Assembly (NCBI GenBank): GCA_902531755.1
Contig: CACAFI010000001.1
Span: forward strand, 62,001 to 126,000
Direction of reading: 5' to 3'
Length of the DNA stretch: 64,000 nt
From: an uncultured Alphaproteobacteria bacterium
GTDB taxonomy: Bacteria; Pseudomonadota; Alphaproteobacteria; Rhodobacterales; Rhodobacteraceae
The notes under the pieces were generated by a model. That model saw only the letters and a program-made list of their open reading frames with translations. It ran no database searches and was not told the origin of the DNA. A program made the translations under genes and the position numbers. Positions within the stretch are counted from its first letter, which is position 1, and each line of letters starts with the position of its first letter. Shown one piece after another: positions 41,664-61,509 of the stretch.

Positions 41664-41784
41664 TTAATTAGTCCTAACAAAAATTACTATATTCTAACGA
41701 GATAGAGAAATCAGACTTTACATGTTTCTCTAAAGTTCATATTAAGTGGTACAAAATTTTTTTAAACTATTAAAGAGGCAGTCA

Positions 41785-43392: not shown

Positions 43393-44565
43393 TTAATTAC
43401 AATCTGTGGGCAATTGCTTTTCTACTAACCTGGCTAAAACTGATGCACCAACTGGAATTATATCTGGGTCTAGCATAAACTTGGGACTATGCAATGGTTG
43501 AGTTCCACTGTGGCCTATTCTGCAATATGCCCCTTTTACATGCTTTAACATATCCGCAAAATCTTCAGATCCCGTAGCGGGTTCGGCTGATCTAATAATA
43601 TTTTCCTTTCCCACGATCTCCTCAGCCGCATCCATATAGAGATCACTTAGTTGATCATCATTATGTAAAACATCAAAAGTATTTCGGAGATCGGGAATTA
43701 CTTCCACTTGGTACGCTGTTTCAAGCCCCTTACATATCGCTTTCACACGTTTCTCAACTAAAGCGTAAACTTCTTCAGAAAAATACCTTATTGTTCCACA
43801 AAGACTAGCCTCTTCAGGAATCACATTGTAAGCGGATCCAGAGTGTATTTGAGTTATTGATAAGACAACGCTTTCCAGCGGTGGCGTGTTTCTTGAAACT
43901 ATAGCTTGCATTTGATCAATCAAATTTGAGCAAATAATAATCGGGTCTACTGATTGATGAGGCATGGCTGCATGACTACCTTTTGCGTTTATTTTTATGT
44001 CAAAAAAAGAAGCACCTGCCATGGCTTTGCCTTTGCAAATAGCAATCTCGCCATGTTTATCATTCGGAGAATTATGTATTCCGTAAATTTCAGAGCAAGG
44101 AAATCTTTCGAATAACCCCTCTTGCAACATTAGGCGCGCTCCACCCATACCTTCTTCGGCTGGTTGAAAAATCAATACAGCTTTACCTTTAAAATTTCGA
44201 GTTTCACACAAATGTTTTGCCGCGCCCAACAACATTGTAGTATGTCCATCATGTCCACAAGCATGCATTTTCCCAGGCGTTTTTGATGCGTAATTAAGGT
44301 TAGTGGTTTCCTCTATTGGAAGTGCATCCATGTCAGCCCTAACACCAACTTGCTTTGGACCTTCTTCGTTGCCGTAAATGATAGCGATAACCCCAGTTTT
44401 TCCTATTTCGGTATGAAGTTCGTCTACCCCAAATTCTTGAAGTTTTTCTTTTACAATTTTTGATGTTCTTATTTCTTCAAAACCCAATTCAGGGTGTTGG
44501 TGCAGATCTTTAAATATTGCAGTTAGTTCTGCAGATATTTTTTTGATTTCTGGCAAAATATTCAT
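43393..44565 (-). CDS. M20-family amidohydrolase (hippurate hydrolase / IAA-amino-acid hydrolase type)
   Basis: This 390-residue metal-dependent hydrolase removes an acyl or amide group from N-acyl amino acids. GVRADMDALPIEE near residue 73, HACGHDGHTTMLLGAAKHL near 100, PAEEGMGGARLML near 135 and IHNSP near 165 match the HipO/AbgB/IlL branch. The Cys and His residues in HACGHDGH hold the metal. It starts as the mirror-image neighbour of the Liv/Urt-type importer across 222 bp, so the two may share regulation and the enzyme could process an imported amide. Substrate is not predictable. Confidence 0.9.
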   Translation of the reverse strand: MNILPEIKKISAELTAIFKDLHQHPELGFEEIRTSKIVKEKLQEFGVDELHTEIGKTGVIAIIYGNEEGPKQVGVRADMDALPIEETTNLNYASKTPGKMHACGHDGHTTMLLGAAKHLCETRNFKGKAVLIFQPAEEGMGGARLMLQEGLFERFPCSEIYGIHNSPNDKHGEIAICKGKAMAGASFFDIKINAKGSHAAMPHQSVDPIIICSNLIDQMQAIVSRNTPPLESVVLSITQIHSGSAYNVIPEEASLCGTIRYFSEEVYALVEKRVKAICKGLETAYQVEVIPDLRNTFDVLHNDDQLSDLYMDAAEEIVGKENIIRSAEPATGSEDFADMLKHVKGAYCRIGHSGTQPLHSPKFMLDPDIIPVGASVLARLVEKQLPTDCN

Positions 44566-44743: not shown

Positions 44744-44787
44744 ATGAAATGGGATTTTTCAAACACAATCAGTCTAGGATTTAGGTC

Positions 44788-45672
44788 ATGGATGAGATTA
44801 TCAAAATAGCATTTGATATTCTCTCTTTCTCTTGCATAATGGTATTAATCGTTTCAGGGCTTGCAATAATTGCCAGTCTCATGGGTATTTTTAATTTTGC
44901 TCATGGGGAATTCGTTTTACTGGGAGCTTATGTAACTTTTTTGTTTCAAGCTATGGGTTTACCTGTAGGACTTGGCATGGTGTGCGCACCTATTGTTGTG
45001 GGATTTTTTGGGTTTTTGCTTGAGGGATCCATTATTCGTAGATTTTATAAAGCCACAATAGTGGCAATGCTAGCTACTTATGCGATAGGTTTGATTATAA
45101 GAGAGATAATTCGCGGAGCTTTGTCCGGCCGATTCTGGAAGGTTACAGAGCCGATCCCTGGGTTATTCGAGATAGGCGACATGAGCTTTTCTATTTGGCG
45201 CGGTGTAATCATTATTATTACCTTGGTAGTTATGGGTGCTTGCTACTATTTTTTAACTAAAACACTATACGGTTTAAAAATCAGAGGAGCTATGGAAAAC
45301 CCATCTTTAGCAAGAGCAAGTGGTATTTCTACAACCAGATTATATTCCTTTACTTTCGCGTTTGGTGCGGCTTTGGCGGGGTTAGCGGGTGCGTTGATGG
45401 TACCACTATACACTTTGTTTGCAGATTTAGGTTTACGTTTTCTTGTAATGGCTTTTCTCTCAGTAATGCTTGGCGGAGTTGGAACTTTTGAGGGTCCAAT
45501 TCTTGGAAGCGCATTGATAGGTGCAATGGTACCTGGGTTCCAGTGGCTTAGGGAGGCCCCCTTAATTGTTGATGTTTTAAGCCCAATATTCTCTGAGGTC
45601 TTGGTTTTTATTGTTGCGATTATAATAGTCAAATTTAGACCCCAAGGATTAATAAGACGAGGCAGAATATAG
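44788..45672 (+). CDS. Branched-chain-amino-acid/urea-type ABC permease (LivH/UrtB family)
   Basis: This 294-residue inner-membrane permease has about eight helices. FNFAHGEFVLLGAYVTF near residue 35 and LAGLAGALMVPLYTLF near 195 are typical of LivH-type proteins, and MLGGVGTFEGPILGSALIGAM near 230 is the conserved coupling region. It opens a plus-strand operon with a binding protein, a LivM permease and two ATPases. The position next to amidase and urease genes suggests amide or urea uptake (UrtB/FmdE-like) rather than leucine uptake. Ligand choice is inferred. Confidence 0.9.
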   Translation: MDEIIKIAFDILSFSCIMVLIVSGLAIIASLMGIFNFAHGEFVLLGAYVTFLFQAMGLPVGLGMVCAPIVVGFFGFLLEGSIIRRFYKATIVAMLATYAIGLIIREIIRGALSGRFWKVTEPIPGLFEIGDMSFSIWRGVIIIITLVVMGACYYFLTKTLYGLKIRGAMENPSLARASGISTTRLYSFTFAFGAALAGLAGALMVPLYTLFADLGLRFLVMAFLSVMLGGVGTFEGPILGSALIGAMVPGFQWLREAPLIVDVLSPIFSEVLVFIVAIIIVKFRPQGLIRRGRI

Positions 45673-45709
45673 AACTGAGCAGGTTTTTCAAAAAAAGAAA
45701 GGACTAAAA

Positions 45710-46942
45710 ATGAAAGATAAATCCAAAATAAATAGTAGAACGACTGATAGACGCTCGTTTTTGTTTGGCACGAGCGCTCTAGCTGCGGCTGGATGGGTCG
45801 CTGTTGGAACTGGTACTTTTGTATTAAAACCAGACTGGGGTTTGGCTGCAGATCCAATAAAGATGGGTATCGCTACCGATATCACCGGTGCAATTGCCGC
45901 AGGAGGGAACTCTTGTTGGCGAACGGCCCAATTGGCAGTCAAGCAGATAAATGATGCCGGAGGGATATTGGGAAGGCCTATTGAACTTGTATTAGAAGAT
46001 ACGGCATCAGATCCAGGTGTAGCCGTTGGTAATGTAAGACGTCTTATCCAGCAGGCGAAAGTGGATGTTGTATTTGGTGGCATTACTAGCGCAATGAGAG
46101 AGGCAATAAAAAATCCAATTGTGAAGAGAGGTAAAACATTGTATCTCTATCCGCAGCTATATGAGGGACAAGAGTGTACCCAACACTTATATTGTACAGG
46201 CCCAACTCCTTACCAGCAGGTATCTGAGTTAATCCCTTACTTAATTAAGCAAGGAAATAAGAGATTTGCTATGCCTTCAGCAAACTATTTGTGGCCACAA
46301 TTATTAAATAAAGCAACCAAGAAAGTAATTGAAGACAATGGTGGTGAAGTGGTTTTAGAAGAATACTTTCCCTTAGATCAGGTAGAATATTCTGCAACGA
46401 TAGGTAAGATCAAAAGTGAGAAAGTTGACCATGTATTTCTAACCATTATTCCTCCTGGATTAGGGCCATTTGGTAAGCAACTTTATGAATCTGGTTGGCA
46501 GAATGATGGGGGCACCATCTCATGTGTGTATTATGATGAAAACTCTCCCTACTACGTCGAACCATATGCGTTAGAAGGTACATATAGTTGTTTAGATTAT
46601 TTCCACACAGTAGATGATCCTTTTAGTAATAAGCTCTTGGCAGAATATAATGCTATGTGGGATGATAAGTTCCTTTTCACCGCTGGTGCTGCTGCTACGG
46701 GTATGTATCGGGCAATCAAGCTTTATGAACAGGGAGTGATAGCTACAAATGGAGACCTAAAAAGAGAAGCTGTTTCTGAAGCCCTTGATAACATATCAGT
46801 GGCAAATGGTCCAGGAGGTGGTTACAAAACTGTGCCTGGTACCGGGCATTGTGCCATGAATATGTATATTGCTCAGAATAAGGGCGGGAAATGGGATATA
46901 ATTTCTAGCTCAGAGATGGTTGATCCTAAAGAGTGTGCGTAA
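45710..46942 (+). CDS. Amide/urea-type ABC substrate-binding protein, Tat-like signal
   Basis: This 410-residue periplasmic-binding protein is of the LivJ/UrtA/AmiC (Peripla_BP_5) class. Its N-terminus has TDRRSFLFGTSALAAAG, close to the twin-arginine motif, with cleavage near residue 47 (GLAAD). The mature start IKMGIATDITGAIAAGG, then LAVKQINDAGGILGRPIELVLEDTASDP, is close to UrtA/AmiC; TSAMREAIKNPIVKRGKTLYLYP near 130 and YPQLYEGQECTQHLYCTG match the urea/short-chain-amide binders. The likely ligand is urea or an amide. A terminator-like hairpin follows at 46960, as often seen after abundant binding proteins. Confidence 0.9.
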   Translation: MKDKSKINSRTTDRRSFLFGTSALAAAGWVAVGTGTFVLKPDWGLAADPIKMGIATDITGAIAAGGNSCWRTAQLAVKQINDAGGILGRPIELVLEDTASDPGVAVGNVRRLIQQAKVDVVFGGITSAMREAIKNPIVKRGKTLYLYPQLYEGQECTQHLYCTGPTPYQQVSELIPYLIKQGNKRFAMPSANYLWPQLLNKATKKVIEDNGGEVVLEEYFPLDQVEYSATIGKIKSEKVDHVFLTIIPPGLGPFGKQLYESGWQNDGGTISCVYYDENSPYYVEPYALEGTYSCLDYFHTVDDPFSNKLLAEYNAMWDDKFLFTAGAAATGMYRAIKLYEQGVIATNGDLKREAVSEALDNISVANGPGGGYKTVPGTGHCAMNMYIAQNKGGKWDIISSSEMVDPKECA

Positions 46943-46959
46943 AAGATAATTAGGCAATA

Positions 46960-46996
46960 AGGGGGAGAATTAATTATATTAAAACTCCCTCTTTTG
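46960..46996 (+). terminator. Intra-operon hairpin after the binding-protein gene
   Basis: AGGGGGAG (46960-46967) pairs with CTCCCTCT (46985-46992) with one G:U pair, and the 3' arm runs into TTTT. It lies 18 bp after the stop codon of the binding protein and before the next permease. Such stems commonly protect or partly terminate the message so that the binding protein is made in excess. Confidence 0.55.
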
Positions 46997-47032
46997 GCTC
47001 TTTAAACACTTCAAGAAATTCAGAGGAAAGTA

Positions 47033-48058
47033 ATGAGTGAGCAAAAGAATACTCGAAGGTATATACCGATTATCGAAATAATTCTTCTAGTGGGGTTAAT
47101 CTCAGCCCCATTATTTATTAATGAGTTTATTACTGTAATATTGACCAGAATGTTAATTCTGGGTCTTTTAGCGATTAGTTTTGAGTTATGCTGGGGATAT
47201 TCGGGTATTATGACTTTTGGTCAAGGCCTCTTCTTTGGTATGGCAGGTTACGCGGTTGCCCTATTTGCTAATAAGGCAGGATTTGTACAAATATGGGGGG
47301 TAATCCCAATAGGAATTATTGTAGGAACGATTACATCTTTTATTGTGGCATGGCTCCTTCTCTTAGGTAAAAAACCTCCAGAAATAATATTTGTTGCACT
47401 AGGCACACTTACATTTTCGTATGCTGCTGAAAGATTGGTATCTGGATGGTACTGGGTTGGTGGAGGAAACGGAATGTCTATATTTGATTTTTTAAGCTTA
47501 GGATCATACGAAATAGAAGCAGGCCTAGTATTTTATTATATTGCTGGGTTAACACTCTTGTTAGTTTATTTAGCTAGCAGATTTCTAGTAAGATCACAAT
47601 TTGGGTTGGTGTTAGCAGGTACCAGACAAAATGAGAAAAGATTGGCTTTTCTTGGATACAGAGTAAGAACCTTTAAAGCACTTGTGTTTACTTTTGCTGG
47701 TGCAATAGCTGGATTAGGAGGTGCACTTTACGCTCACCACGAAGGCTTTATTGGTCCAAATAATATGGGGATTGGCATATCAACAATGGCAGTTTTATAT
47801 GCTCTCTTTGGAGGGGCTGGATCGCTTCTTGGCCCAATAATTGGAGTTTTAGCAATTGAAAGTATTTCGTTCAACCTATCTGATATTGAAGCCATTAAGA
47901 GTTTTTGGCCCGTGGTGTTAGGTATAATATTACTTGGTGTGGTTACTTTTAAACCTGATGGTATACTTGGTTTTCTTGTCACTCAACGCGAAAGAATTGG
48001 CACGTTCGGTAGAATTAAAAAAAGAAAAAATAAAAGAAAAAACGATTTGGAAAGTTAG
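47033..48058 (+). CDS. Branched-chain-amino-acid/urea-type ABC permease (LivM/UrtC family)
   Basis: This 341-residue permease has about nine helices. CWGYSGIMTFGQGLFFGMAGY near residue 53, and GTRQNEKRLAFLGYRVRTFKALVFTFAGAIAGLGGALYAH near 200, are the conserved LivM blocks; GGAGSLLGPIIGVLAIE near 262 is the second coupling region. The C-terminus is a lysine/arginine-rich tail (RIKKRKNKRKN), longer than usual. It pairs with the LivH-type permease encoded 1.4 kb upstream. AGAGGAAAG precedes the ATG. Confidence 0.9.
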   Translation: MSEQKNTRRYIPIIEIILLVGLISAPLFINEFITVILTRMLILGLLAISFELCWGYSGIMTFGQGLFFGMAGYAVALFANKAGFVQIWGVIPIGIIVGTITSFIVAWLLLLGKKPPEIIFVALGTLTFSYAAERLVSGWYWVGGGNGMSIFDFLSLGSYEIEAGLVFYYIAGLTLLLVYLASRFLVRSQFGLVLAGTRQNEKRLAFLGYRVRTFKALVFTFAGAIAGLGGALYAHHEGFIGPNNMGIGISTMAVLYALFGGAGSLLGPIIGVLAIESISFNLSDIEAIKSFWPVVLGIILLGVVTFKPDGILGFLVTQRERIGTFGRIKKRKNKRKNDLES

Positions 48059-48064
48059 TTATTG

Positions 48065-48799
48065 ATGGCTCTTCTAGAGATAAAAGACGTTGGAAAAAAG
48101 TTTGGGACTTTAAGGGCACTTGACGGCATAAACGTTTCGGTAGGGGAAAATTCCTTTCACGGATTGATAGGACCCAATGGTTCTGGGAAAAGTACATTAC
48201 TTAAAGCTATAGCTGGAGATCATTATGCAGATGAAGGGTCTATAATTTTCAATGGACTTGACATTACTCAGAGATCACCGGAATTTAGAGCAAAGAATGG
48301 ACTCAACTTAAAGTTTCAGATAACTTCAATTTTTCCTGAGTTATCCTGTTACGATAACATTTTATTATCTATCCAATCAATGCAATCTGTTTGGAGTCTG
48401 ATTACCTCTAGAGGAAAGGACTCACTGAATGATAAGATTATGGATACCCTTGAACAATTTAAACTTGCTGATAGGGCGGAAACATTAGCTGGAGAGTTGA
48501 GCCATGGATTGCAACAATGGTTGGAAATCGCCATGTCAGTAATTCGAAAGCCAAAACTTCTTCTCTTAGACGAGCCTACTGGGGGGATGAGCCCAGAAGA
48601 ACGACGAGCGACAGGGGAGCTATTACTTCCTATAAAAAACCATACCACTCTTGTGATAGTTGAGCATGACCTAGAATGGATAAAGGATATTTGTGATAAT
48701 TTAACAGTATTGGATCAGGGAAAAGTTCTCGATGATGGATCAGTTGAACAAATTGAAAAATCAGAAAAAGTTAAGGAGGTATATACGACCCGTGTCTAA
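48065..48799 (+). CDS. ABC ATPase, LivG/UrtD family
   Basis: This 244-residue ATPase has Walker A GPNGSGKSTLLK near residue 34, the signature LSHGLQQWLEI near 142, which is the LivG/UrtD-specific LSHGxQQ form, Walker B LLLLDEPTGGMSPEE near 163 and the switch VEHD near 198. ATG 48065 is preferred over the adjacent TTG 48062. The gene begins 6 bp after the LivM stop and overlaps the second ATPase by 8 bp. It drives import by the five-gene transporter. Confidence 0.92.
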   Translation: MALLEIKDVGKKFGTLRALDGINVSVGENSFHGLIGPNGSGKSTLLKAIAGDHYADEGSIIFNGLDITQRSPEFRAKNGLNLKFQITSIFPELSCYDNILLSIQSMQSVWSLITSRGKDSLNDKIMDTLEQFKLADRAETLAGELSHGLQQWLEIAMSVIRKPKLLLLDEPTGGMSPEERRATGELLLPIKNHTTLVIVEHDLEWIKDICDNLTVLDQGKVLDDGSVEQIEKSEKVKEVYTTRV

Positions 48800-49502
48800 T
48801 AACGATTTAATTTTGGAAGTAGAAAAAGTGAGCTCTGGATATGGTCAAAGTCAAGTTCTATTTGACCTAACTCTTAATTGCCCAAAAAAAGGTGCGATTG
48901 CTATCTTGGGAAGAAATGGTGCAGGAAAAAGTACGCTCCTTAAAACCATAGCTAATGAAATAGATCCGTTAAGTGGTAGTATTATTTTTGATAAGGTTAA
49001 TACGGCTAACGAAACAACTGATAAAATTGTGCGAAGAGGTCTGGCTTACGTACCTCAAGAAGATGCAGTATTCTTAAAACTTACAGTGCAAGAAAATTTA
49101 ATGTTGGGAGCAAGCTCAAATAAGAAATATAACAGTAGTGACCTAGAGATGGTGCTCGATTTTTTTCCGAAGTTATCTCAAAGATTGTCTCAGCAAGCAG
49201 GAACATTATCAGGCGGAGAACGAAAAATGCTAGCGATGAGTAGAGCTTTAATTGGAAAACCAAAATTCATTATGCTTGATGAACCAACAGAGGGTGTTTG
49301 GGTCGGGGTGATCGAGGAAATAGCGGATAGGTTAAGAAAGCTATCAAAAGAGATATCTGTTTTACTTGTAGAGCAGCACGTAGAACTGGCGCTAGAGGTA
49401 TGTGATTACGCATATGTTTTAGATAGAGGAACTATCCCACTTCAGGGAAATAGCGATGATCTCAATAGTGACTCTAAACTAATTAAGCTTTTAGCACCGT
49501 GA
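48792..49502 (+). CDS. ABC ATPase, LivF/UrtE family
   Basis: This roughly 236-residue ATPase starts at GTG 48792, chosen because AAGGAGGT (48773-48780) lies 11-12 nt upstream and because homologues begin near LILEVEKVSSGYG; longer frames extend into livG without support. Walker A GRNGAGKSTLLK, signature LSGGERKMLAMSRAL, Walker B FIMLDEPTEGV and the switch VEQHVE are clear. After DEPTEG the family usually reads I/L-x-P; here it is VWVGVIEEI. It is followed 23 bp later by the first amidase. Confidence 0.9.
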   Translation: MSNNDLILEVEKVSSGYGQSQVLFDLTLNCPKKGAIAILGRNGAGKSTLLKTIANEIDPLSGSIIFDKVNTANETTDKIVRRGLAYVPQEDAVFLKLTVQENLMLGASSNKKYNSSDLEMVLDFFPKLSQRLSQQAGTLSGGERKMLAMSRALIGKPKFIMLDEPTEGVWVGVIEEIADRLRKLSKEISVLLVEQHVELALEVCDYAYVLDRGTIPLQGNSDDLNSDSKLIKLLAP

Positions 49503-49525
49503 AATTTTAACAAAAGGAGGAAAAA

Positions 49526-51046
49526 ATGGCTGTACAATTACCAACAAAAGCACAGATTTTAGAGATAGCAGCAGAGGTCGGTCTTGATCTAAGTGAAGAG
49601 GATGTTAGTTCTTTCCAGGGGTTATTTCAGGGAAGTGTAGATGCTTACAATGCAGTTGATGAAATGCCTGATAATCTTCCCGAGGTTAAATATCCCAGAA
49701 CACCAGGGTATAAGCCTAGAGGTGAAGAGAATAAATATAATGCTTGGCATGTAAAAACTGAGGTTAAAGGAAATTCTAGAGGAAAACTAAAAGGTAAGAC
49801 GGTTGTTCTTAAGGACAACATAATGCTTGCCGGCGTTCCTATGATGAATGGTGCCTCCACGCTTGAAGGCTATGTCCCTGATATAGATGCAACGGTGACT
49901 AATAGGCTTCTTGACGCTGGCGCAACAATCGTGGGTAAGGCGCATTGTGAATTTTATTGCTTGTCAGGAGGAAGCCATACAAGTGCTTCGGGTCCCGTGC
50001 ACAATCCGCATAAAATGGGCTACATGGCTGGGGGTTCGTCCTCTGGAAGTGCAGCACTGGTAGCTGCTGGAGAGGTAGATATGGCAATGGGTGGAGACCA
50101 AGGCGGTTCTATAAGGATGCCTGCTTCATATTGTGGTATTTATGGCTTAAAACCTACTCATGGATTAGTTCCTTATACAGGAATCATGCCTATTGAAATT
50201 TATATTGATCATACTGGCCCCATGACAAATAATGTTGAAGATAACGCTTTAATGTTAGAGGCTATAGCTGGTAATGATGGTTATGATCCTAGGCAATACA
50301 ATGTAAAAACGCAAAAGTACACTGATGCTTTGAAGGGTGTGGATGGCTTAAAGGGTATGAGAATAGCTGTAGTAAAGGAAGGGTATGGGCACGCCAATAC
50401 AGAAAAAGATGTGGACCAAAAAGTTAAAGCAGCTCTAGACAAAATTAAGTCTATGGGCGCTATCGTAGAAGAAGTTTCTATACCCATGCACGCATTAGGG
50501 CCAGCTCTATGGACTCCAATTGGAACAGAAGGTTTAACCCAAACTATGATGTGGGGTGATGGTTATGGCGTAAGCCGCCCTGACCTTTATGTAACAAGCC
50601 TGATGGATTTTCATAGGAACTGGAGGTCAAGAGCAAACGAACTATCCGAAACTACAAAGCTCTTAACAATGTTTGGTACCTACATAAGAAATTACTATGG
50701 AAGTAGGTATTACGGAAAGGCGATGAATCTAACAAGAATGCTTACAGCTGCCTATGATAAGGTGTTAGATAGCTACGATTTGCTTGCCATGCCGACAACC
50801 GTTGTAAAATCTCAGCCTATACCAGCTCCAGATGCTAGTAGGGAAGAATATGTCCAAAGGGGTTTTGAAATGTTGGCTAACACCCAGGGTTTTGATATAA
50901 CGCATCATCCAGCTATGGCTCTGCCATGCGGTATGTCAGATGGGCTTCCTGTTAGTCTTCAGTTGGTAGGAAAACATTTTAATGAGAGTACAATATACCG
51001 AGCAGCTCATGGGTTCCAAGAAGGCACAGACTGGAAAAATATGTAA
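49526..51046 (+). CDS. Amidase, amidase-signature family (copy 1)
   Basis: This 506-residue enzyme hydrolyses amides to the acid and ammonia. The Ser-cisSer-Lys triad is fully visible: Lys96 in VVLKDN, Ser171 in AGGSSSGSAAL and nucleophile Ser195 in GGDQGGSIRMPAS. These are the same positions I recall for the Rhodococcus nitrile-pathway amidase, and the N-terminal extension of about 85 residues matches that group. GGAGGAAAA precedes the ATG. Next to it is a second, very similar copy, and the pair lies between an amide/urea-type importer and urease. A role in releasing ammonia from imported amides is likely. No nitrile hydratase is present. Confidence 0.93.
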   Translation: MAVQLPTKAQILEIAAEVGLDLSEEDVSSFQGLFQGSVDAYNAVDEMPDNLPEVKYPRTPGYKPRGEENKYNAWHVKTEVKGNSRGKLKGKTVVLKDNIMLAGVPMMNGASTLEGYVPDIDATVTNRLLDAGATIVGKAHCEFYCLSGGSHTSASGPVHNPHKMGYMAGGSSSGSAALVAAGEVDMAMGGDQGGSIRMPASYCGIYGLKPTHGLVPYTGIMPIEIYIDHTGPMTNNVEDNALMLEAIAGNDGYDPRQYNVKTQKYTDALKGVDGLKGMRIAVVKEGYGHANTEKDVDQKVKAALDKIKSMGAIVEEVSIPMHALGPALWTPIGTEGLTQTMMWGDGYGVSRPDLYVTSLMDFHRNWRSRANELSETTKLLTMFGTYIRNYYGSRYYGKAMNLTRMLTAAYDKVLDSYDLLAMPTTVVKSQPIPAPDASREEYVQRGFEMLANTQGFDITHHPAMALPCGMSDGLPVSLQLVGKHFNESTIYRAAHGFQEGTDWKNM

Positions 51047-51064
51047 ATCTAGTAGGACAACATT

Positions 51065-52591
51065 ATGGTTATTAAGTTACCAAATAGTTGGGATATAAGG
51101 ACTATCTCAGAAGAAATTGGTTTAGACCTAGAAGAGAAAGAAATTCTCGAATATATAGAGCTTATGGGTCCCGCCATTGAGTCCTACAATTACATTGACA
51201 AAGTCCCTGATAATATACCATCAGTGAAATACAGCAGAACACCTGGTTATAAACCTAAAGGAGAAGAAAATAAATATAATGCTTGGCACGTAAAAACTAC
51301 TGTGAAAGGGAATTCTAGAGGTAAATTAGTTGGCAAAACAGTTGTCTTAAAAGATAATGTGATGTTGGCAGGAGTTCCTTTTATCAATGGATCTGCTACT
51401 CTTGAAGGCTATCAGCCCGATATGGATGCCACGATTGTGACAAGATTGCTTGATGCGGGTGCAACCATAGTTGGTAAAGCACATTGTGAAAATTTTTGTT
51501 TCTCATGCGGTAGCCATACCAATTCGACAGGACCTTGCCATAATCCACATAAAATGGGTTATATGGCAGGAGGTTCTTCTTCAGGAAGTGCTGTATTAGT
51601 AGCTGTTGGTGAAGTTGATATGGCGATTGGAGGAGATCAGGGTGGATCAATTAGAATGCCAGCTTCTTGGTGCGGTATCTATGGAATGAAACCCACTCAT
51701 GGATTGGTTCCTTATACAGGAATTATGCCTATCGAGATTACGGTAGATCATGCTGGTCCCATGACAAATAATGTTGAAGACAATGCACTGATGCTTGAAG
51801 TTATCGCTGGGTCTGACAGTCTTGATCCAAGACAAGTTGATATAAAGACCCACAAATATACAAAGTCATTATTAGGAAAAAATGGGTTAGAGAATTTAAG
51901 GATTGGAGTTGTAAAAGAAGGCTTTCAACAAGAAGGGTGTGAGGATGATGTGAACTTAAAGGTGAGAAGTGCTCTTAATCATTTTAAAGAGGTTGGTGCC
52001 GTTGTAGAAGATGTATCTATTCCTCTTCATTTGGAGGCCCCGGCACTGCTTGCCCCCATATATTTTGAAGGGGCAACTCAGACTATGATGTATGGTGATG
52101 GTTATGGTGTAAGCAGGTCTGACCTCTACTCTACTAGCCTGATGGACTTTCATAGAAATTGGAGAACGAGGGCAAATGAGCTTCCAGCAACAGTTAAATT
52201 GGTTACCCTTTTAGGAACTTATATAAGAAAAAATCATGGAAGCAGATACTTTGGTAAATCCATAAATTTAATTCGAATGTTGCGTTCAGCATATGATGAA
52301 AAACTTTCAAGTTACGATTTACTTGTAATGCCTACAACCGCTGCTAAGGCACAAGCTATTCCCCATGCCGGAGCAAGTATTAAAGAAGTTGTTCAATCAG
52401 CTTTGCCCCTATATTTAAATGGAAATACCCAGCCATTTAATGCAACTCACCATCCGGCTATGGCAGTACCTTGTGGAATGTCCGAAGGTTTACCCATAAG
52501 CCTTATGCTAATTGGTAAGCATTTTGATGAACCAACGATCTACAGAGCAGCACACGCTTTTCAAGAGACAATTGATTGGAGGTCAATTTAA
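51065..52591 (+). CDS. Amidase, amidase-signature family (copy 2)
   Basis: This 508-residue paralogue lies 18 bp after copy 1. The triad Lys96, Ser171 and Ser195 is conserved at identical positions, and stretches such as ENKYNAWHVKT and THGLVPYTGIMPIEI are identical, so the two arose by tandem duplication. Differences include NGSATLEGYQPD, GSHTNSTGPCHNPHKM (copy 1: GSHTSASGPVHNPHKM) and CENFCFSCG against CEFYCLSGG, all close to the substrate pocket. This may have changed substrate range. It ends 22 bp before ureE. Divergence is moderate, so the duplication is not very recent. Confidence 0.92.
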   Translation: MVIKLPNSWDIRTISEEIGLDLEEKEILEYIELMGPAIESYNYIDKVPDNIPSVKYSRTPGYKPKGEENKYNAWHVKTTVKGNSRGKLVGKTVVLKDNVMLAGVPFINGSATLEGYQPDMDATIVTRLLDAGATIVGKAHCENFCFSCGSHTNSTGPCHNPHKMGYMAGGSSSGSAVLVAVGEVDMAIGGDQGGSIRMPASWCGIYGMKPTHGLVPYTGIMPIEITVDHAGPMTNNVEDNALMLEVIAGSDSLDPRQVDIKTHKYTKSLLGKNGLENLRIGVVKEGFQQEGCEDDVNLKVRSALNHFKEVGAVVEDVSIPLHLEAPALLAPIYFEGATQTMMYGDGYGVSRSDLYSTSLMDFHRNWRTRANELPATVKLVTLLGTYIRKNHGSRYFGKSINLIRMLRSAYDEKLSSYDLLVMPTTAAKAQAIPHAGASIKEVVQSALPLYLNGNTQPFNATHHPAMAVPCGMSEGLPISLMLIGKHFDEPTIYRAAHAFQETIDWRSI

Positions 52592-52613
52592 TCGCTAAAT
52601 GGTTTGAATTTAT

Positions 52614-53069
52614 ATGATTTTCGAAAAAATATTGGGAAACGAAAACGACGAATCATTTTCTGAGAAGCTTCATCATCTTTCTCATAAGTCATTGGTAGAT
52701 TACATTGAGATAAAGCCAGAAGATTCTTTTAGACGAAGAATGAGGATGGTTTCAATTAACGGAAGGGAATACAAACTTGCTATTCCAAGATCACAGAAGA
52801 TTGAAAATGGATCTATTCTATGGTTATCAGAAGATTTTGCAGTTGTTATCAGAATACTTAATGGTCCAAAAATTCGAGTAACACCCAAGAATATAACATC
52901 GGCAGTACGACTAGGGTATCATTGTGGAAATTTACATTGGAAAACAAACTTCATTCAAGGAGGCATAGATATCATTCTTAGCGGTGAAAGTCAAAACTAC
53001 TTTGATAGGCTAAAGACATTGGAAGAATTTGCTGATTTTGAAGTGGAATATTTAGAAAATGACAATTGA
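52614..53069 (+). CDS. ureE: Urease accessory protein UreE (nickel chaperone)
   Basis: This 151-residue metallochaperone delivers nickel to urease. Two domains are recognisable: an N-terminal beta domain with RRRMRMVSINGREYKLAIPR at about residues 40-60, and a ferredoxin-like domain with the dimer-interface histidine in LGYHCGNLHWKTNF at about 101-114. The C-terminus ends in acidic residues and lacks the His-rich tail of Klebsiella UreE, which is common in other groups. UreE is first in the operon; it is 22 bp after amidase 2 and overlaps ureF by 11 bp. Confidence 0.88.
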   Translation: MIFEKILGNENDESFSEKLHHLSHKSLVDYIEIKPEDSFRRRMRMVSINGREYKLAIPRSQKIENGSILWLSEDFAVVIRILNGPKIRVTPKNITSAVRLGYHCGNLHWKTNFIQGGIDIILSGESQNYFDRLKTLEEFADFEVEYLENDN

Positions 53070-53715
53070 CTTTTTAAGGTCACTTCAACTTGCAGATAGT
53101 GGATTCCCTACGGGAAGTTTTGGTTACTCTTGGGGTTTAGAAGCAGCAGTTTACAAAGGGTTACTAACAAAAAATAATTTTTCACTATGGTTAGAAAGTG
53201 AAATGTTAGATAGATGGGCCTTTTTTGATCGTATAATTTTGTCCGAAGCTTGGAGTAAAAATATACACAATTTCTTGTTGTGGGAAAAGAAAATAGATAG
53301 ATTTTTTTGGTCTAAAAAACAAAAAAAAGACTCAATTGGTGCTGGTCGCGTTTATTTAGAAAGTCTTAATCGCTTTGATTCAAAAAAGTCATCGGACTTA
53401 TTGAAAATGTTAAACGAAAATAAAATCTATGGACATTTATCTGCGTTACAGGGAATTACATATAAAATGATGGGTTTATCGAGATATCAATCTATGCTCA
53501 TAGGTGCACATGTTAATTCACAATCTTTAATATCTGCAGCTGTAAGATTAAATATAGTTTCATCTATGAACGGACAAATTTACTACTCTGAGTTAATACC
53601 GAAATTAGCAGATCTTTGTTCCAGAAAATGTTGTGAAGATGATATCGGTGGCTTTTTCCCAAGTGGAGAAATAGCGTTGCTCAGCTTTAGACCTAATTCT
53701 TTGTTTATTAATTGA
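53059..53715 (+). CDS. ureF: Urease accessory protein UreF
   Basis: This 218-residue all-helical protein forms the UreD-UreF-UreG activation complex. The diagnostic N-terminal sequence is LRSLQLADSGFPTGSFGYSWGLE, with further family features in GHLSALQGITYKMMGLSRYQS near residue 125-145. The frame overlaps the end of ureE by 11 bp, and 9 bp separate it from ureA/B, with TTGAGGAGT before that gene. The size is normal. It is required to insert nickel with the help of UreG GTPase. Confidence 0.9.
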   Translation: MTIDFLRSLQLADSGFPTGSFGYSWGLEAAVYKGLLTKNNFSLWLESEMLDRWAFFDRIILSEAWSKNIHNFLLWEKKIDRFFWSKKQKKDSIGAGRVYLESLNRFDSKKSSDLLKMLNENKIYGHLSALQGITYKMMGLSRYQSMLIGAHVNSQSLISAAVRLNIVSSMNGQIYYSELIPKLADLCSRKCCEDDIGGFFPSGEIALLSFRPNSLFIN

Positions 53716-53724
53716 GGAGTAATT

Positions 53725-54414
53725 ATGAATTTAACACCTACTGAAATGGAAAGACTAACAATATTTACCGTTGCTGAGCTGGCTAGACGTTATAAAAAGC
53801 ATGGTGTAAAGCTAAGCATGCCAGAGGCACAAGCACTTATAGCGGATGAAATATTATTAGGTGCAAGACGGGGCATGTCTCACTCGGAGCTTGTAACCTA
53901 TGGTAGTAACATTTTAAATTCTGGTGATGTAGAGGAAGGAGTAGCAAACTTAATAAGGTCAATCTCAATCGAAGTATCACTAGAAGAGGGTACAAAATTA
54001 GTAACCATATTTGATCCTATAGAAGCAAATAATTTAGAAAGAATACCTGGCCAAATTTACTGTATGAAGGGAGATATTGAGTTAAACAAAAATAGAAAAA
54101 TGGTAAAATTAAAAGTAATGAATTCTGGAGATCGATCTATTCAAGTAAGATCTCATGCCCACTTTTTTGAGGTTAATAGAGTGCTGCTATTTGATAGAGA
54201 AAGGGCTTTCGGAATGCGATTAGATAGACCTTCTGGAGGAGGGGAACGCTTTGATCCAGGTATAGAAAAAGAGGTTTCCTTGGTCGCTTATGGAGGAAAT
54301 AAGTTTGTAGAAGGATTTTCGGGTTTGACACAGGGACATTTGAGTAAGACTGATGTGAAAGAAAAGGCTTTACAGAAAGCAAAAGAAAATCATTTTATTG
54401 CCAAGGAGAAATAA
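53725..54414 (+). CDS. ureAB: Urease gamma and beta subunits fused
   Basis: This 229-residue protein fuses the gamma subunit (about residues 1-100: LTPTEMERLTIFTVAELARRYKKHGVKL, ADEILLGARRG) to the beta subunit (about 110-215: IPGQIYCMKGDIELN and RSHAHFFEVNRVLLFDRE, then GMRLDRPSGGGERFDPG). The fusion is typical of Helicobacter-type UreA and is less usual in alphaproteobacteria, where ureA and ureB are normally separate. It overlaps the ureC start by one base (ATAATG), so the three-part enzyme would be made stoichiometrically. Confidence 0.93.
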   Translation: MNLTPTEMERLTIFTVAELARRYKKHGVKLSMPEAQALIADEILLGARRGMSHSELVTYGSNILNSGDVEEGVANLIRSISIEVSLEEGTKLVTIFDPIEANNLERIPGQIYCMKGDIELNKNRKMVKLKVMNSGDRSIQVRSHAHFFEVNRVLLFDRERAFGMRLDRPSGGGERFDPGIEKEVSLVAYGGNKFVEGFSGLTQGHLSKTDVKEKALQKAKENHFIAKEK

Positions 54415-56117
54415 TGAAGATATCGAGAGAGCAATACGCTTCCTTTTATGGTCCTACCACAGGCGATATTTTTCGTCTAGGGGATACCTCGCTGCTTGCA
54501 GAAGTTGAAAAAGACTATGCATACTATGGCGACGAATTGACAACGGGGGCTGGTAAAAACATGAGAGACGGCGAAGGATTTCGTCCGAGCGGAACAGATA
54601 AATCAGGCGCCTTAGATTTAGTTGTTCAAAACGCTGTAATAATTGATCCAATATTAGGCATTATTAAGGGAGACATAGGAGTAAGAAGAGGCAAGATTGT
54701 CGATATCGGCAAGGCAGGTAATCCGGACATAATGGATTCTGTTAGCAAAAATTTGGTCACTGGTCCAAATACTACAGTCATCCATGGTGACAATATGATA
54801 ATAACACCAGGAATAGTAGAAGCACATTCACATTTTCTTTCTCCACAACAAGTATGGCATGCACTTGCAGGTGGTTGTACAACAATGATAGGTATGAGCC
54901 CTGGTCCACATTTTGATGTCAGTTGCTCCGGTCCATTTACATTAGGAAAACTAATTCAAGCGGCAGATGAGTTTCCAATTAATTTTGGGTTCTTGGGTAG
55001 AGGTTCGTCTAATCCAGCAGCTGTTGAAGAGAGTGTTGGAGGTGGTGCTCTTGGAGTTAAAATTCACGAAGATTTTGGCGCATCGGGAGCTGTGATTGAT
55101 GGGTGTTTGATCGCAGCTGATAACAGTGATTTTTCTGTACATATTCATACTGACACAATAAATGAATTTGGTTTTTATCAAGATACAATGAAGGCAATTA
55201 AAGATCGAACAATCCATATGTACCATACTGAAGGAGCAGGTGGGGGACATGCACCTGATATCTTAGCTGTAAACGGTTGGGAAAATGTAATTCCCTCTTC
55301 AACAAATCCAACCAACCCCTTTACGGCAGCAGCGCTTGAAGAGGGAGTACCGATGACGATGCTCGCGCATATGATGAGTTATGAGTTGCCAGAAGATGTC
55401 TCATTTGCAGAGTGTAGAATACGTCCCCAGACTATGGCAGCAGAAGATATCCTGCATGATATGGGAGCAATTTCAATATTTGCAACGGATACTCAGGGAA
55501 TGGGAAGACTTGCAGAAAATGGAACGAAAGCCTTTCAATTGGCTTCAGTAATGAAAGATCATTTTGGAAGGTTTAAAGAGGAAAAAACCGCAAATGCAGA
55601 TAATGAAAGGATCTTACGTTATATCGCAAAGCTAACAATAAATCCCTCTATTGCGGCAGGTATTTCTGATTATGTTGGTTCTATAAGTTCAGGAAAATAT
55701 GCAGACTTTGTGATTTGGCGAAGAGATCATTTTATGGCAAAACCTGAACAAGTGGTTAAGTGTGGAGAAATAGTGTGGTCAAAAATGGGTGACGGAAACG
55801 GAAGCTTTATAGGGGCTGAACCATTGATTCAAAGACCTATGTGGGGAGCAATGGGGCGTTCAAAATCAGAAAATGGTTTCACCTTCGTGAGTAAGTTAGC
55901 AGTGGAGAATGCAGTACATGACAAGTTGGATGTAAAAAAGAAGTTTTTACCGATTAAATCCGTGCGTACACTTAGAAAAACAGATATGGTTCGTAATAAT
56001 GCGACACCGTCAATAGAAGTTGATAGCAACACATTTGAGGTGAGAGCAGACGGACGTCTATTGAATTCTCCACCAGCGAAGCGGGTCCCTTTAAATAGAA
56101 GTTATTTTGTCAGATGA
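54414..56117 (+). CDS. ureC: Urease alpha (catalytic) subunit, divergent
   Basis: This 567-residue protein carries the nickel active site. Metal ligands are H138 and H140 (EAHSHFL), carbamylated K216 (GVKIHEDFG), H245 (IHTDTIN), H271 (HTEGAGGGH) and D359 (ATDTQGMGR). The general acid corresponding to Klebsiella His320 is H319, but the flap cysteine (Cys319) is Ala318 (MLAHMM in place of MVCHHL). Other departures are HSHF in place of HIHF, HEDFG in place of HEDWG, and the segment at 160-175, where TPGPW-type sequence is replaced by [12 protein letters not shown]. It should therefore be a nickel amidohydrolase; urea is the natural guess, but the substrate is less certain than usual. Confidence 0.9.
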
Positions 56118-56719
56118 CAGCAGCTAGAATAGGAATAGGTGGTCCTGTTGGATCCGGTAAGACTGCTTTAATAGAGCAATTATTAGATAATTTTAAAAAA
56201 AAATCGATTAGTGTTGCGGTAATAACAAACGATTTAGTAACCGATGAGGATGCACTAAGGATAAGAAAAAGCGGAAAATTAAAAGAAGATAGAGTGGTTG
56301 CTGTTCAAGCAGGAGCTTGTCCACATACAGTGATAAGAGAGGACCCCAGTCTTAACATTAGCGCTGCTGATAAACTGGAAAGTAAGTTTCCAGATTTAAA
56401 AGCTATTTTAATTGAAAGTGGTGGTGATAATCTAGCGTCAACGTTTTCCCTAGATCTAGTAGATTGGTGGATGTTTGTGATTGATGTTGCAGGAGGTGAT
56501 GACATTCCAAGAAAAAATGGTCCGGGCGTTTTAAATTGTGATTTATTAGTAATAAACAAAATTGACCTTGCTCCATATGTTGGGGTTAATCTTGAAGATA
56601 TGCTTCTAGAGGCAAAGTCAGCAAGGCACGGTAGGAAAGTTATTAGCTCAAATTGTAAAACTGGTATAGGAGTTGATGAATTGTTTTCTATAATTGAGAA
56701 CGAGGTTATTTTTGAGTAA
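56114..56719 (+). CDS. ureG: Urease accessory GTPase UreG
   Basis: This 201-residue GTPase drives nickel insertion. P-loop [15 protein letters not shown] at about residues 8-22, the metal-binding [11 protein letters not shown] near 76-86 (the CPH motif that binds nickel at the dimer interface), [14 protein letters not shown] near 101, and [10 protein letters not shown] near 152 are all present. It overlaps the end of ureC by ATGA and overlaps ureD by 8 bp. The residues needed for nucleotide and metal binding are intact, so the maturation machinery looks functional. Confidence 0.93.
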
Positions 56720-57530
56720 ACATTTCGACAAACTTAGAGAAGAAAGTAAATTTGTCTTTAATATTGAGATTAAGAAAAACAATCACAACAAGTTCAAGCT
56801 AGTAAAAAAGAAAGTTACCTTTCCTTGGTCTCTAGGACGAGGTTATGAGCAAAGAAGTGGTATGAATTGTATTCGGATATTACCTCAAGTAGCTGGGGCA
56901 GGATTAATGTCTGGAGATAACTTTTTTCAAAGAGTTTATTTAGGGAAAGATGCAAGAGTCAGGATGGAGGACTCAGGTTCTATGATTGTCCTTTCAGGAG
57001 AGAAGGGTCCCGCGGCAACCCATTGGGAATATACTGTAAATGAAGGGGGTATACTAATTCTTGATAGTGAGCCGTACTGCCTTTTAGATAACGCGAGGTG
57101 TGAATTTTATAATACCTTTTATTTATCTGAAAGTGCCACCGTAATAGCTCTTGACGGTTTTTGTCATTCAAAAAATTTAGTAGAAAAATTCGGATACTAT
57201 AAAAACGAAACCAAGGTCAGGTCTCTGGATGGGAAATTAATTTTGATGGATCGACAAAAAGCTTTAGCTGGCTCTCTACATCGTCTTTCAAAGTATGTTG
57301 AGAAAGGGTCGGGAGCAGTTGGAACAATAAATATTTTTGCTGTGGAAAAGGTAAGTGCAAACCTGATAGCAGTTGTTGATGATTTAGATATTCCTCATGC
57401 AAGAACGGCGTTCAATGGTATATCTGGTTTTTCTGTACGGTTACTGGCTCCATCCGGAGGACAACTTCGTAATGTAACAAAACATGTTTTAGGCCAGTTC
57501 GAGCAAAAACTTAAAGAGTTAATTGTTTAA
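56712..57530 (+). CDS. ureD: Urease accessory protein UreD (UreH)
   Basis: This roughly 272-residue scaffold protein binds apo-urease with UreF and UreG. TTG 56712 is preferred because GAGG lies 7 nt before it and because the start then overlaps the ureG stop in the string TTGAGTAA; TTG 56694 would add six residues. Family features are [20 protein letters not shown] near residues 58-77, [22 protein letters not shown] near 105, and [23 protein letters not shown] near the C-terminus. UreD is normally the first gene in alphaproteobacterial urease operons; here it is last. Confidence 0.88.
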
Positions 57531-57542
57531 TTCAACAAACAC

Positions 57543-59468
57543 TTAACTACCTTTAACAGAGCAACTAGCTTGATTTTTTTGAGCCCCAAGATCTATAGAG
57601 GGGTTTTTATCAAAAAACCCAACTGGCATAAGTTTAAAGCCAGTTTTTACTACAGGTTGAACAGGATAATCCTCTATTCGTGGTAAATGGTGAAGGCCAA
57701 AAACATGCCAGGCAACGAGATCTTTATTTTTGATGCTTCTCTTCTTTTTAATAAATGAAGGTAATCCTTCATCAGATTTTGACCCGTTAACAAACTCCCC
57801 TGCAGGATATCTTTCTTCTCTATCAAATTCAGTTGCCCATAATGAGTTAAAGATAAACTTCATACGAGACCCAGAAGACCCGTTTGGATCATGAAATGAT
57901 GCTATACTGCCTGTTGGCTCAATCTTGTAAGACGTATTATTTCCCATTATGTTTTTTTTATTCTCACTTACAAACTTCCAGTATCTTTGCTTATCTGGAT
58001 TACGTTTGAAACCTCCTTCTACCTTGAGTGCTTTCTCTTGAACATAGAAAGCGTTGCCAAAAGGATTCAATTCCGATGATTTTTCTTGCTCTGTATCACA
58101 TTGATATAGTGAATTTTTTTCGCCATCAACTGCCATATCTAATCTAGCACAAAAAATATGTTGATGGATCTGGCCAACAACTCCTGGCGCTACTTCTGTT
58201 CCATATTTGTCACCAGAATGGGGTATGCAGCCGACTGTATTAATTACTCCGGTAGCTTTCATTTCAAATTCTATTTCTCCATCAAGATAAAGATACCAGT
58301 ATGAAGCATAATCATAATTTCCTACTGTTGAAATAGATGAAATCACAAGACGTCTTCCTCTTCTGACTTCCGTGCTATCGAGTCTGAAGTCGTAGTGCTT
58401 CCACAACAAGCCATGGTCTTCTTCATGAATGCATATCCCATTTTTTATTTTCATCGGATTTCCATTTGTGTCTGCTATCCAGCAGTCCATGTAGTAAATC
58501 GATCCTAAACAATCACACCCAAGCTCTAGAGAATTTGCTAATTTTCCAATCCCATATTCACCAATATCAAAAACATTTTTTCTTGCATGTGTTTTATTAG
58601 GACTTCCATAAGGTACTACCATTTCTGCAATCGATGCTCTGTAACATATTGATCTATTATCGTAGCATACATTATGAAGGGTTAAGCCTTCTCTGGAATT
58701 GAAACCGACTACTAGAGACCACTTGTCCCATAGAAGCTTTCCATCTTTAAACTCAAATGATACGCCGGAGGGCTGATTAATATTTATTTGCTTAAGATTA
58801 TTTCGCGGATTTTTCTCAAATTCAGGCATGTAGTTTCCTGGCGCTTTCGGAATAGGAATATCTCCCACATCTATAACTTCTATAACTTCTAAAGTTTTTA
58901 TGTCGACGGTAGCGTTTAAGCCCTCAATTGGATGTGCATATTGATGATCGGTTGGACTGTTTCGTACCCAAGCAAATATATGGCTTATATGTCTACCTTC
59001 TTCATCCTTAGAGGCAACAAAACCTGCTGACCAGGCATCAACGCACACCAAGTCCATATCTACAATACCTCTTCTCTTACATCCTTTAACGAAGCGAGGG
59101 TCGCTCTTTACTGCATTTTCAATATCTAAAAACTCTTCCAGCTGAATCATAGGCTGTGCATCAGAATATATCTCCTCTGATATAACTCTTTCTTCAGAAA
59201 TAGATACCTTTACAACGTTTATACCAACTTTGCCTTCTTTGAAAATATTCACTCTAGCAACTCGGGATATTTGCATACCTTTTTTGAAATTCAGTACAAA
59301 AGATTTCTCAGGTTCTTCGAGTTGAATTGTTTCAAAAAATATTTTTTCACGCGTCTCTACAAAATAATTTTTTACGATCTTAGCGGCAATATAAATTTCT
59401 TCCTCTGTCAAAGGATTAAGAGGATGCTTAATAGACTTAATTTTGTCTGACTCTACTAGTTGATCCAT
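57543..59468 (-). CDS. Copper-containing primary-amine oxidase
   Basis: This 641-residue enzyme oxidises primary amines to aldehyde, ammonia and H2O2. The cofactor tyrosine that becomes topaquinone is Tyr385 in VGNYDYAS (NYD/E motif). The catalytic base is Asp301 in FDIGEYG, and copper ligands are H435 and H437 (IHQHIF) with a third His in GLHHLPRIEDYP near residue 600. No signal peptide is seen, so the enzyme is likely cytoplasmic, as in Arthrobacter. It converges on ureD with 12 bp between, and adds another ammonia-releasing activity to this region. The amine substrate is unknown. Confidence 0.93.
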   Translation of the reverse strand: MDQLVESDKIKSIKHPLNPLTEEEIYIAAKIVKNYFVETREKIFFETIQLEEPEKSFVLNFKKGMQISRVARVNIFKEGKVGINVVKVSISEERVISEEIYSDAQPMIQLEEFLDIENAVKSDPRFVKGCKRRGIVDMDLVCVDAWSAGFVASKDEEGRHISHIFAWVRNSPTDHQYAHPIEGLNATVDIKTLEVIEVIDVGDIPIPKAPGNYMPEFEKNPRNNLKQININQPSGVSFEFKDGKLLWDKWSLVVGFNSREGLTLHNVCYDNRSICYRASIAEMVVPYGSPNKTHARKNVFDIGEYGIGKLANSLELGCDCLGSIYYMDCWIADTNGNPMKIKNGICIHEEDHGLLWKHYDFRLDSTEVRRGRRLVISSISTVGNYDYASYWYLYLDGEIEFEMKATGVINTVGCIPHSGDKYGTEVAPGVVGQIHQHIFCARLDMAVDGEKNSLYQCDTEQEKSSELNPFGNAFYVQEKALKVEGGFKRNPDKQRYWKFVSENKKNIMGNNTSYKIEPTGSIASFHDPNGSSGSRMKFIFNSLWATEFDREERYPAGEFVNGSKSDEGLPSFIKKKRSIKNKDLVAWHVFGLHHLPRIEDYPVQPVVKTGFKLMPVGFFDKNPSIDLGAQKNQASCSVKGS

Positions 59469-59596
59469 TTAAATACTCCCCTTTTATAAGTGGTGTAATA
59501 TTTATGTTCTTTACTTTTAGTTAATCCCAATAGTATTCTCTAATTGTTATAGCTTACACCAATAAGCTAAATTTTTAAATAATCTAATTGCATAAA

Positions 59597-60571: not shown

Positions 60572-60580
60572 TGTAATGAA

Positions 60581-61471: not shown

Positions 61472-61509
61472 GCAATGATTACTTTAATTAAAAATTAAAG
61501 AGGTTTTTT

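Follow-up and report, generated by a model that had tools for sequence, protein, structure and literature searches.

The closest described relatives of the gene system reported here are UrtABCDE urea importers encoded beside urease and the importer-amide hydrolase operons of the FmdDEF type. In the available parts of the source papers, Urt-like importers also adjoin amidases in Bradyrhizobium japonicum (PMC3098086) and an amidase in Pseudomonas veronii (PMC13209695), and FmdDEF carries both short amides and urea (PMC10781810). We analysed a 64,000-nucleotide stretch of DNA from an uncultured member of the Rhodobacteraceae (contig CACAFI010000001.1, positions 62,001 to 126,000 of the forward strand; hereafter the window, in whose own numbering coordinates are given), which carries 13 plus-strand open reading frames (ORFs) at 44788-57530 for a five-part importer of the LIV/Urt superfamily, two tandem amidases and a complete ureEF(AB)CGD set. 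A first-pass annotation of the window had opposed Urt transporters paired with urease to FmdDEF transporters paired with amidases, a contrast that proves too sharp given the reports above. Searches of the open-licence literature by titles and abstract openings returned no account of importer, amidase and urease in a single operon. Ureases are usually taken as urea enzymes, and a clade that has an altered pocket, nearly always neighbours an amide importer and an amidase, and in near-complete genomes accompanies an ordinary urease allows the idea of specialised or changed ureases to be put to the test, along with that of a kind of dissolved organic nitrogen not yet recognised.

Our preferred reading, held tentatively and a little short of an even chance, is that the row forms an operon for amide scavenging, equipped with an unusual urease of its own, and would salvage an amide from whose breakdown urea or a urea-like fragment remains in the cell. 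In the first step, the periplasmic binding protein would capture an uncharged primary amide, as opposed to urea or a branched-chain amino acid, and the five-part ATP-binding cassette (ABC) importer would move it inside. The two amidases, of a nitrile-hydratase-partner family from which their chemistry is taken, would then split the amide into an acid and a nitrogen-containing part, and the urease would break down the remaining urea or urea-like remnant to ammonia and carbon dioxide within the cell. An N-acylurea (R-CO-NH-CO-NH2) or a similar compound serves as an example, and the simplest chemistry to use all of the parts would be an imported compound of this sort, from which the amidase step releases urea. 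A single compound bearing both an amide and a urea-like group, as the first-pass annotation suggested, may or may not be involved. Amide import and amidase cleavage, taken jointly, are very probable, while the sequential link from amidase to urease is put forward with less than even confidence; we infer the substrate, the order of the steps and co-transcription from sequence.

Family profile searches and ORF calls gave the following gene order and boundaries.

44788-45672, plus strand: importer permease 1 (LivH/UrtB-like); PF02653 at E 1.6e-35, TIGR03409 at 175.8 bits against a cut-off of 250.3
45710-46942, plus strand: substrate-binding protein, amide type; Peripla_BP_6/5, UrtA model at 214.4 of 492.75 bits
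47033-48058, plus strand: importer permease 2 (LivM/UrtC-like); TIGR03408 at 158.9 of 296.2 bits
48062-48799, plus strand: importer ATPase 1 (LivG/UrtD-like); TIGR03411 at 243.7 of 304.1 bits
48732-49502, plus strand: importer ATPase 2 (LivF/UrtE-like); TIGR03410 at 217.2 of 285.8 bits
49526-51046, plus strand: amidase 1 (amidase-signature, PRK07235 subfamily); NF005565 at 790.6 bits, cut-off 545
51065-52591, plus strand: amidase 2; NF005565 at 740 bits, cut-off 545
52614-53069, plus strand: UreE; NF009752 at 114.7 of 162 bits, PF02814 at 25.7 of 26.9, and place in the ure row
53059-53715, plus strand: UreF; PF01730 at 42.9 bits, cut-off 23.3
53725-54414, plus strand: UreA-UreB fusion (gamma and beta subunits); PF00547 and PF00699 within a single ORF
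54414-56117, plus strand: UreC of a distinct clade; over the PF00449 cut-off
56114-56719, plus strand: UreG; PF02492 at E 3e-30
56694-57530, plus strand: UreD; PF01774 at 63.7 bits, cut-off 27
43393-44565, minus strand: M20-family amidohydrolase (HipO-like), the divergent upstream neighbour, outside the operon; ORF, family name by eye
57543-59468, minus strand: copper amine oxidase, convergent, outside the row; PF01179 at E 2.4e-150
52591-59650, no strand: urease and oxidase block of about 7 kb with approximate borders; blastn against L032

Along the row the intergenic gaps are 37, 90 and 3-6 bp, an overlap, 23, 18 and 22 bp, an overlap, 9 bp, and then three overlaps. UreF, UreAB, UreG and UreD exceed their Pfam cut-offs, and UreE is weak and slightly under. 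The host genome comprises 1.52 Mb in 85 contigs and is 64.5% complete, the window has a G+C content of 35-41%, and the bacterium is probably marine; the isolate codes of its nearest relatives are presumably those of ocean single cells. In one of these relatives (L031, isolate AG-916-C10), the full set of 13 genes recurs in identical order together with the oxidase and the M20 hydrolase upstream, at 68-98% protein identity, so the row is no assembly accident. The 13 plus-strand genes with gaps of at most 90 bp, the importer, the two amidases and the full urease set reported in the first-pass annotation are thus confirmed by ORFs, family searches and this relative. By comparison with L031, three mechanically assigned starts are probably early, by about 3 bp for livG (probable start 48065), about 60 bp for livF (about 48792; the L031 LivF homologue is 21 residues shorter than the window ORF) and about 18 bp for ureD (about 56712). 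Promoter- and terminator-like sites across the row are at or below shuffled expectation, with no excess, and a promoter motif comparison upstream of 44788 found no clear conserved block common to the window, L031 and L032. RNA families and tRNAs were sought in the window and none was found.

The importer belongs to the Liv/Urt superfamily, as the first-pass annotation proposed, but its assignment to the Urt type is not supported. None of its five subunits passes the curated cut-off of the urea-importer (Urt) models TIGR03407-03411, and the Liv models are all missed as well, with 54.5 of 477 bits for the binding protein, 52.4 of 379 for LivH, 51 of 366 for LivM, 135.3 of 362 for LivG and 169.9 of 441 for LivF. 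On these Liv scores we reject a branched-chain amino acid importer; a binding protein of that kind, which the first-pass annotation had named as the finding that would speak against it, is not what the score of 54.5 bits indicates. The binding protein also carries a twin-arginine-like signal, judged by eye.

Its pocket was compared with that of Prochlorococcus UrtA, for which the available part of the structural report describes eight strictly conserved urea-site residues, with changes to S122, Q144, Y190 or N246 weakening or abolishing urea binding and Q144 and N246 holding the urea nitrogens (PMC10392092). The alignment comprised binding proteins of two importer types that are about 30% identical and both partner PRK07235 amidases (70 of type A, 66 distinct, and 28 of type B, 27 distinct), along with 10 control UrtA sequences that were over the cut-off and came from genomes belonging to the same family or class. 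All eight urea contacts are intact in 10/10 controls. The window protein keeps four of the eight and reads I, L, I and V at W120, Q144, N246 and S274, the last being the least certain column of the alignment. Throughout type A, S122, Y141, E146 and Y190 are kept (70/70), W120 is I (69) or V (1), and Q144, N246 and S274 are invariably L, I and V; in type B, W120 is I or V, N246 is V, S274 is T or V, and Q144 is L in 22/28 and Q in 6/28. The amide sensor AmiC, aligned and read by eye, likewise has neither Q144 nor N246. In our reading, the pocket would still grip the carbonyl and one NH2, while the side facing the second NH2 has turned hydrophobic, as for R-CONH2. The system looks like an amide importer of neither the Urt nor the branched-chain-amino-acid type, and its pocket residues and neighbours point to a kinship of function with FmdDEF-type short-chain amide importers. 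Importers of this kind are readily misidentified as urea transporters.

On the Urt scores and pocket residues together we reject a plain urea importer, and the idea of a plain urea operon (UrtABCDE and urease) into which amidases were inserted, which would account for an importer of the same superfamily, is scarcely credible. All five subunits fall under their cut-offs and urea contacts are changed, the row opens with a permease gene instead of following the urtABCDE order, and importer-amidase pairs are common without urease, the near relative L032 having the pair alone.

Both amidases pass the PRK07235 cut-off and are 68% identical to each other. Their best solved relatives are 3A1K/3A1I, which we take to be RhAmidase, the nitrile-hydratase partner of Rhodococcus, with a match that spans residues 13-498. 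K96, S171 and S195, by what we take to be the numbering of the Lys-Ser-Ser triad, are present in both proteins and align with 3A1K, while 3A1I has Ala in the S195 column. In the amidase tree, from which L033, L035, L095, L040 and L124 (duplicates or partial) and one zero-length row were left out, and in which few Bradyrhizobium-type loci are sampled, both fall in a clade of 10 rows (support 98/99) drawn from this genus and two genera close to it, and amidase 2 is a duplicate that arose inside this clade. A search for an FmdA/AmdA-type amidase in the host genome (64.5% complete) found none. One amidase copy of another genome of the genus (G012:C1:232156-233664, L010) contains a single in-frame stop codon and may be decaying or reflect a sequencing error.

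In a sister group that includes members of the same genus, LivF and the amidase are fused in a single ORF, an arrangement absent from the window that would physically couple import to hydrolysis. The fusion accounts for 10/82 amidases (L121:10622-13000, L117, L118, L120, L122, L123, L136, L143, L144 and L146), with ORFs of about 790-805 residues in those printed and linkers of about 50 to 75 residues. A flotillin gene (Pfam) lies upstream in 8/10 of these loci and an acyl-CoA synthetase gene (by eye) downstream in 9/10. The literature searches, by titles and abstract openings within open-licence papers, returned no account of a LivF-amidase fusion.

The urease differs from ordinary ureases in its phylogeny and in its active site. 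The window UreC and 14 others form one branch (support 100/100) separate from ordinary ureC rows, and the window protein is about 53% identical to ordinary alphaproteobacterial ureC. Residues were compared with 18 ordinary rows (17 distinct genes), using Klebsiella numbers transferred by eye. The nickel ligands and the carbamylated lysine are kept (HxH, K, H, H and D in the motif columns of the rows compared), as are His219, Asp221, His320 and Arg336. In all 15 members of the clade, His312 is replaced by G, Trp222 by F or Y, Ser253 by F or Y, and Ala363 (SPU Ala366) by G. The flap His321 is likewise altered in 15/15, to M (8), Q (3), I (2), F or C, and the flap Cys319 is Ala in 11/15, including the window, and Cys in four (G608, G598, G770 and G1084). 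Four residues (3 + 1) are missing from the loop at Ala167 (SPU Ala170), a position with which D aligns in 14 sequences and E in one. According to the available part of a structural report, the carbonyls of SPU Ala170 and Ala366 contact the urea NH2 (PMC7433671). The window urease lacks usual pocket residues (a short Ala170 loop with Asp, Ala366 to Gly, flap Cys to Ala), which are not known to be required for activity.

These alterations raise the possibility that the urease has changed substrate and acts on the imported compound itself, or on a derived N-substituted urea or amide, instead of urea. No bolder reading is compatible with the data; under it, an N-acylurea-like compound would be a nitrogen source not yet recognised, and we consider it unlikely. 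The flap, pocket and loop changes throughout the clade favour it, as do the urea contacts described for the SPU Ala170 and Ala366 carbonyls and the ordinary ureC alongside in 10/10 near-complete carriers, but the nickel ligands and the four catalytic residues are retained, and a comparable loop shortening with Gly363 occurs in 8/8 intermediate ureases of other genomes, whose neighbourhoods are only partly amide-related, so these features are not special to the clade. Cys319Ala alone is not known to kill Klebsiella urease. Structures of the Klebsiella Cys319Ala variant are cited in the available part of PMC10933438.

In order to see how consistently the three parts occur together, the neighbourhoods of the clade ureases were compared across the 15 genomes in which they were found. 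In 12 of the 13 loci with enough flank, the urease has an importer (type A or B) and a PRK07235 amidase as its neighbours; this count omits G333 and G598 (contigs under 6 kb) and comprises the window, G019, G012, G107, G113, G199, G323, G450, G608, G770, G1084 and a Burkholderiales locus (L090). The order importer-amidase-ureE on a single strand is kept in 10/12; the importer is divergent in G450, and L090 has its importer after UreAB and UreC, with UreE, UreF and UreG not seen within the available stretch. This adjacency, together with the fusion of amidase to importer ATPase in the sister group, bears out the proposal of the first-pass annotation that importer, amidase and urease belong together.

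Genome draws, each including the host genome, yielded carriers of the clade in 8/394 (family), 4/385 (class) and 4/398 (phylum). The family draw (394 genomes, 393 genera) contains ureC at E <= 1e-186 in nine genomes, eight with the clade and G025, and the amidase in 46. In seven of these nine (6/8 clade genomes and G025), the amidase lies within 2 kb on one contig, and co-occurrence alone gives p = 6e-6; the urease-amidase association exceeds chance. G025 encodes an intermediate-group urease with AmiR, an aliphatic amidase, a distant PRK07235-subfamily amidase (42%) and an importer. As a control, ordinary ureC and the amidase are on different contigs in 16 genomes searched genome-wide, or 86 kb apart (G059), a comparison in which contig ends may hide adjacency. 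AmiR-type genes were also detected beside importers of this superfamily and intermediate-group ureases at L168:5232-8000 (tblastn only) and L116:3269-3889 (Pfam).

Viewed from the amidase, the urease is the variable part of the system, and importer with amidase the common pair. At least two importer genes accompany 77/80 amidase loci in public genomes, and importer-amidase operons without urease are common (Bradyrhizobium and Reyranella). Mapped onto the amidase tree, linkage to urease requires a minimum of 9 changes and importer type a minimum of 5, with 15 short-flank loci (17 rows) set aside; two G012 amidases (L115) were first scored as urease-free with a urease 4 to 10 kb away, and relabelling one and omitting the other still gives 9 and 5. 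The trio has therefore been joined, or taken apart, repeatedly. A near relative illustrates this variability: L032 keeps the row through amidase 2, followed by about 230 bp and then the next common gene, and about 7 kb with the urease and oxidase genes are missing. Window 44787-52568 corresponds in blastn to L032 5263-13046, and window 59705-62463 to L032 13280-16066. The urease would be an addition to an importer-amidase row, and gain in one relative or loss in the other would both fit L032.

Presence and absence of the block at one site between near relatives, along with the varying importer type and amidase lineage, could also suggest hitch-hiking, that is, unrelated nitrogen cassettes gathered in a variable island with no common pathway. 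We consider this very improbable: the trio adjoins in 12/13 loci and keeps its order in 10, across families and two importer types, and ordinary ureC is unlinked in 16/16 genomes. Urease addition is not random: importer and amidase adjoin the urease in 12/13 loci although importer types and amidase lineages differ.

The first-pass annotation placed a copper amine oxidase at the end of the row, where the gene does adjoin, but its convergent, minus-strand orientation excludes it from membership. The enzyme domain and the N2 and N3 domains are present (PF01179, PF02727 and PF02728). The oxidase gene belongs to the block that L032 lacks, and a copper amine oxidase also stands beside nitrile hydratase in G012, so a connection with amide chemistry, though loose, is plausible. 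G012 is of the same genus, and its stretch L115:9409-13504, divergent from an amidase of this kind, encodes the alpha and beta subunits of nitrile hydratase (each above its NCBIfam cut-off) between that amidase and the oxidase. The stretch also includes two genes with no Pfam match, a small one that may be an accessory gene and one of 107 residues. In G402, nitrile hydratase matches lie beside another such amidase. Cyanamide or a nitrile is possible as the starting compound in G012 but was set aside for the window, where, as in L031 and L032, a search for nitrile hydratase returned no match. On the upstream side, the M20 hydrolase adjoins the importer in L031 and L032 too, and a SulP-type anion permease gene (name by eye; window 41746-43383) that adjoins this hydrolase is kept in both.

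Ordinary ureC is also present in 12/14 carriers of the clade searched for every ureC copy (the L090 genome was left out), including 10/10 that are at least 90% complete, and UrtA over the cut-off occurs in 9/10 of these near-complete carriers (not G450); the clade urease mostly comes in addition to an ordinary one. For the window, the idea of a spare enzyme next to a conventional urea pathway is unsupported, because the host genome shows a single ureC and no UrtA over the cut-off, both weak negatives at 64.5% completeness.

These distributions bear on a further reading, in which two parallel branches share one control: the amidases would free ammonia from imported amides, and the urease would handle urea from elsewhere, perhaps brought in part by the same importer and otherwise arriving by another route or made in the cell, so that no compound needs both enzymes. 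Taken by itself this account is doubtful, and yet parallel amide and urea salvage under one control is nearly as likely as the sequential reading. These loci bring together nitrogen-salvage genes (AtzE-like amidases and genes of the nitrilase family, formamidase-like and AmiE types), the L116 island holds AmiR, AmiE, importer and urease together, and G019 (84% complete) and G012 (80%) lack UrtA over the cut-off, so their importer might serve urea too. Against this stand an importer pocket that departs from UrtA at four urea contacts and, in near-complete carriers, the ordinary ureC (10/10) and UrtA (9/10), which would make a second urease redundant unless it is regulated differently.

Several observations weigh against our preferred reading of amide import, amidase cleavage and urease acting in sequence. 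Known PRK07235-subfamily members cut simple amides, and to our knowledge acylureas are not among their substrates. The binding-protein argument is one of residue position alone, the second importer type is also urease-linked and keeps Q144 in 6/28, and FmdDEF exemplifies one importer that can carry amides and urea alike (PMC10781810). Around one clade urease (G299), the 20 kb examined contain neither this importer nor this amidase, but formamidase-like, asparaginase-like and AtzE-like genes. No urease is seen at 76/80 amidase loci, with four showing one and some flanks cut, and no single amidase lineage accompanies the urease. A second ureC was not found in the host genome (64.5% complete) or in G333 (73%), nor UrtA over the cut-off in G000, G019, G012, G333 and G450.

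Two further features were observed at related loci. At L130, L131, L133 and L134, an isochorismatase-family hydrolase gene adjoins urease genes, with RutB and biuret hydrolase as nearest models, far below cut-off; an AtzE-like amidase accompanies it in 3/4, a hint of ureido-compound chemistry. At L039, L046, L066, L105, L110 and L163, a lone UrtA/AmiC-like protein, which may be an amide sensor, and a MarR-type regulator (by eye) are encoded upstream of the importer-amidase operon; the window has no match to either.

Compared with described systems, the row combines familiar parts in an unfamiliar arrangement. In the available part of the source, UrtABCDE is encoded beside urease in Corynebacterium glutamicum and many other lineages (PMC3098086), and the likeness to the window lies in the importer superfamily, the two permeases and two ATPases, and the adjoining urease; the window importer differs in falling under every Urt cut-off, in gene order, in four changed urea contacts and in the two amidases between importer and urease. 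The fmdCABDEF and Urt-like operons with FmdA/AmiE from Methylophilus, B. japonicum and P. veronii share a superfamily importer beside an amide hydrolase, but, as described in the available parts of PMC10781810, PMC3098086 and PMC13209695, they use amidase families other than the PRK07235 subfamily of the window and include no urease. The Rhodococcus amidase 3A1K/3A1I resembles the window amidases across residues 13-498 and at the Lys/Ser/Ser positions, while the window has no nitrile hydratase match. With ordinary alphaproteobacterial urease, the window enzyme shares the nickel ligands, the catalytic residues and the accessory set, and differs in its separate branch, its altered flap and pocket loop, its fused UreAB and its linkage to importer and amidase.

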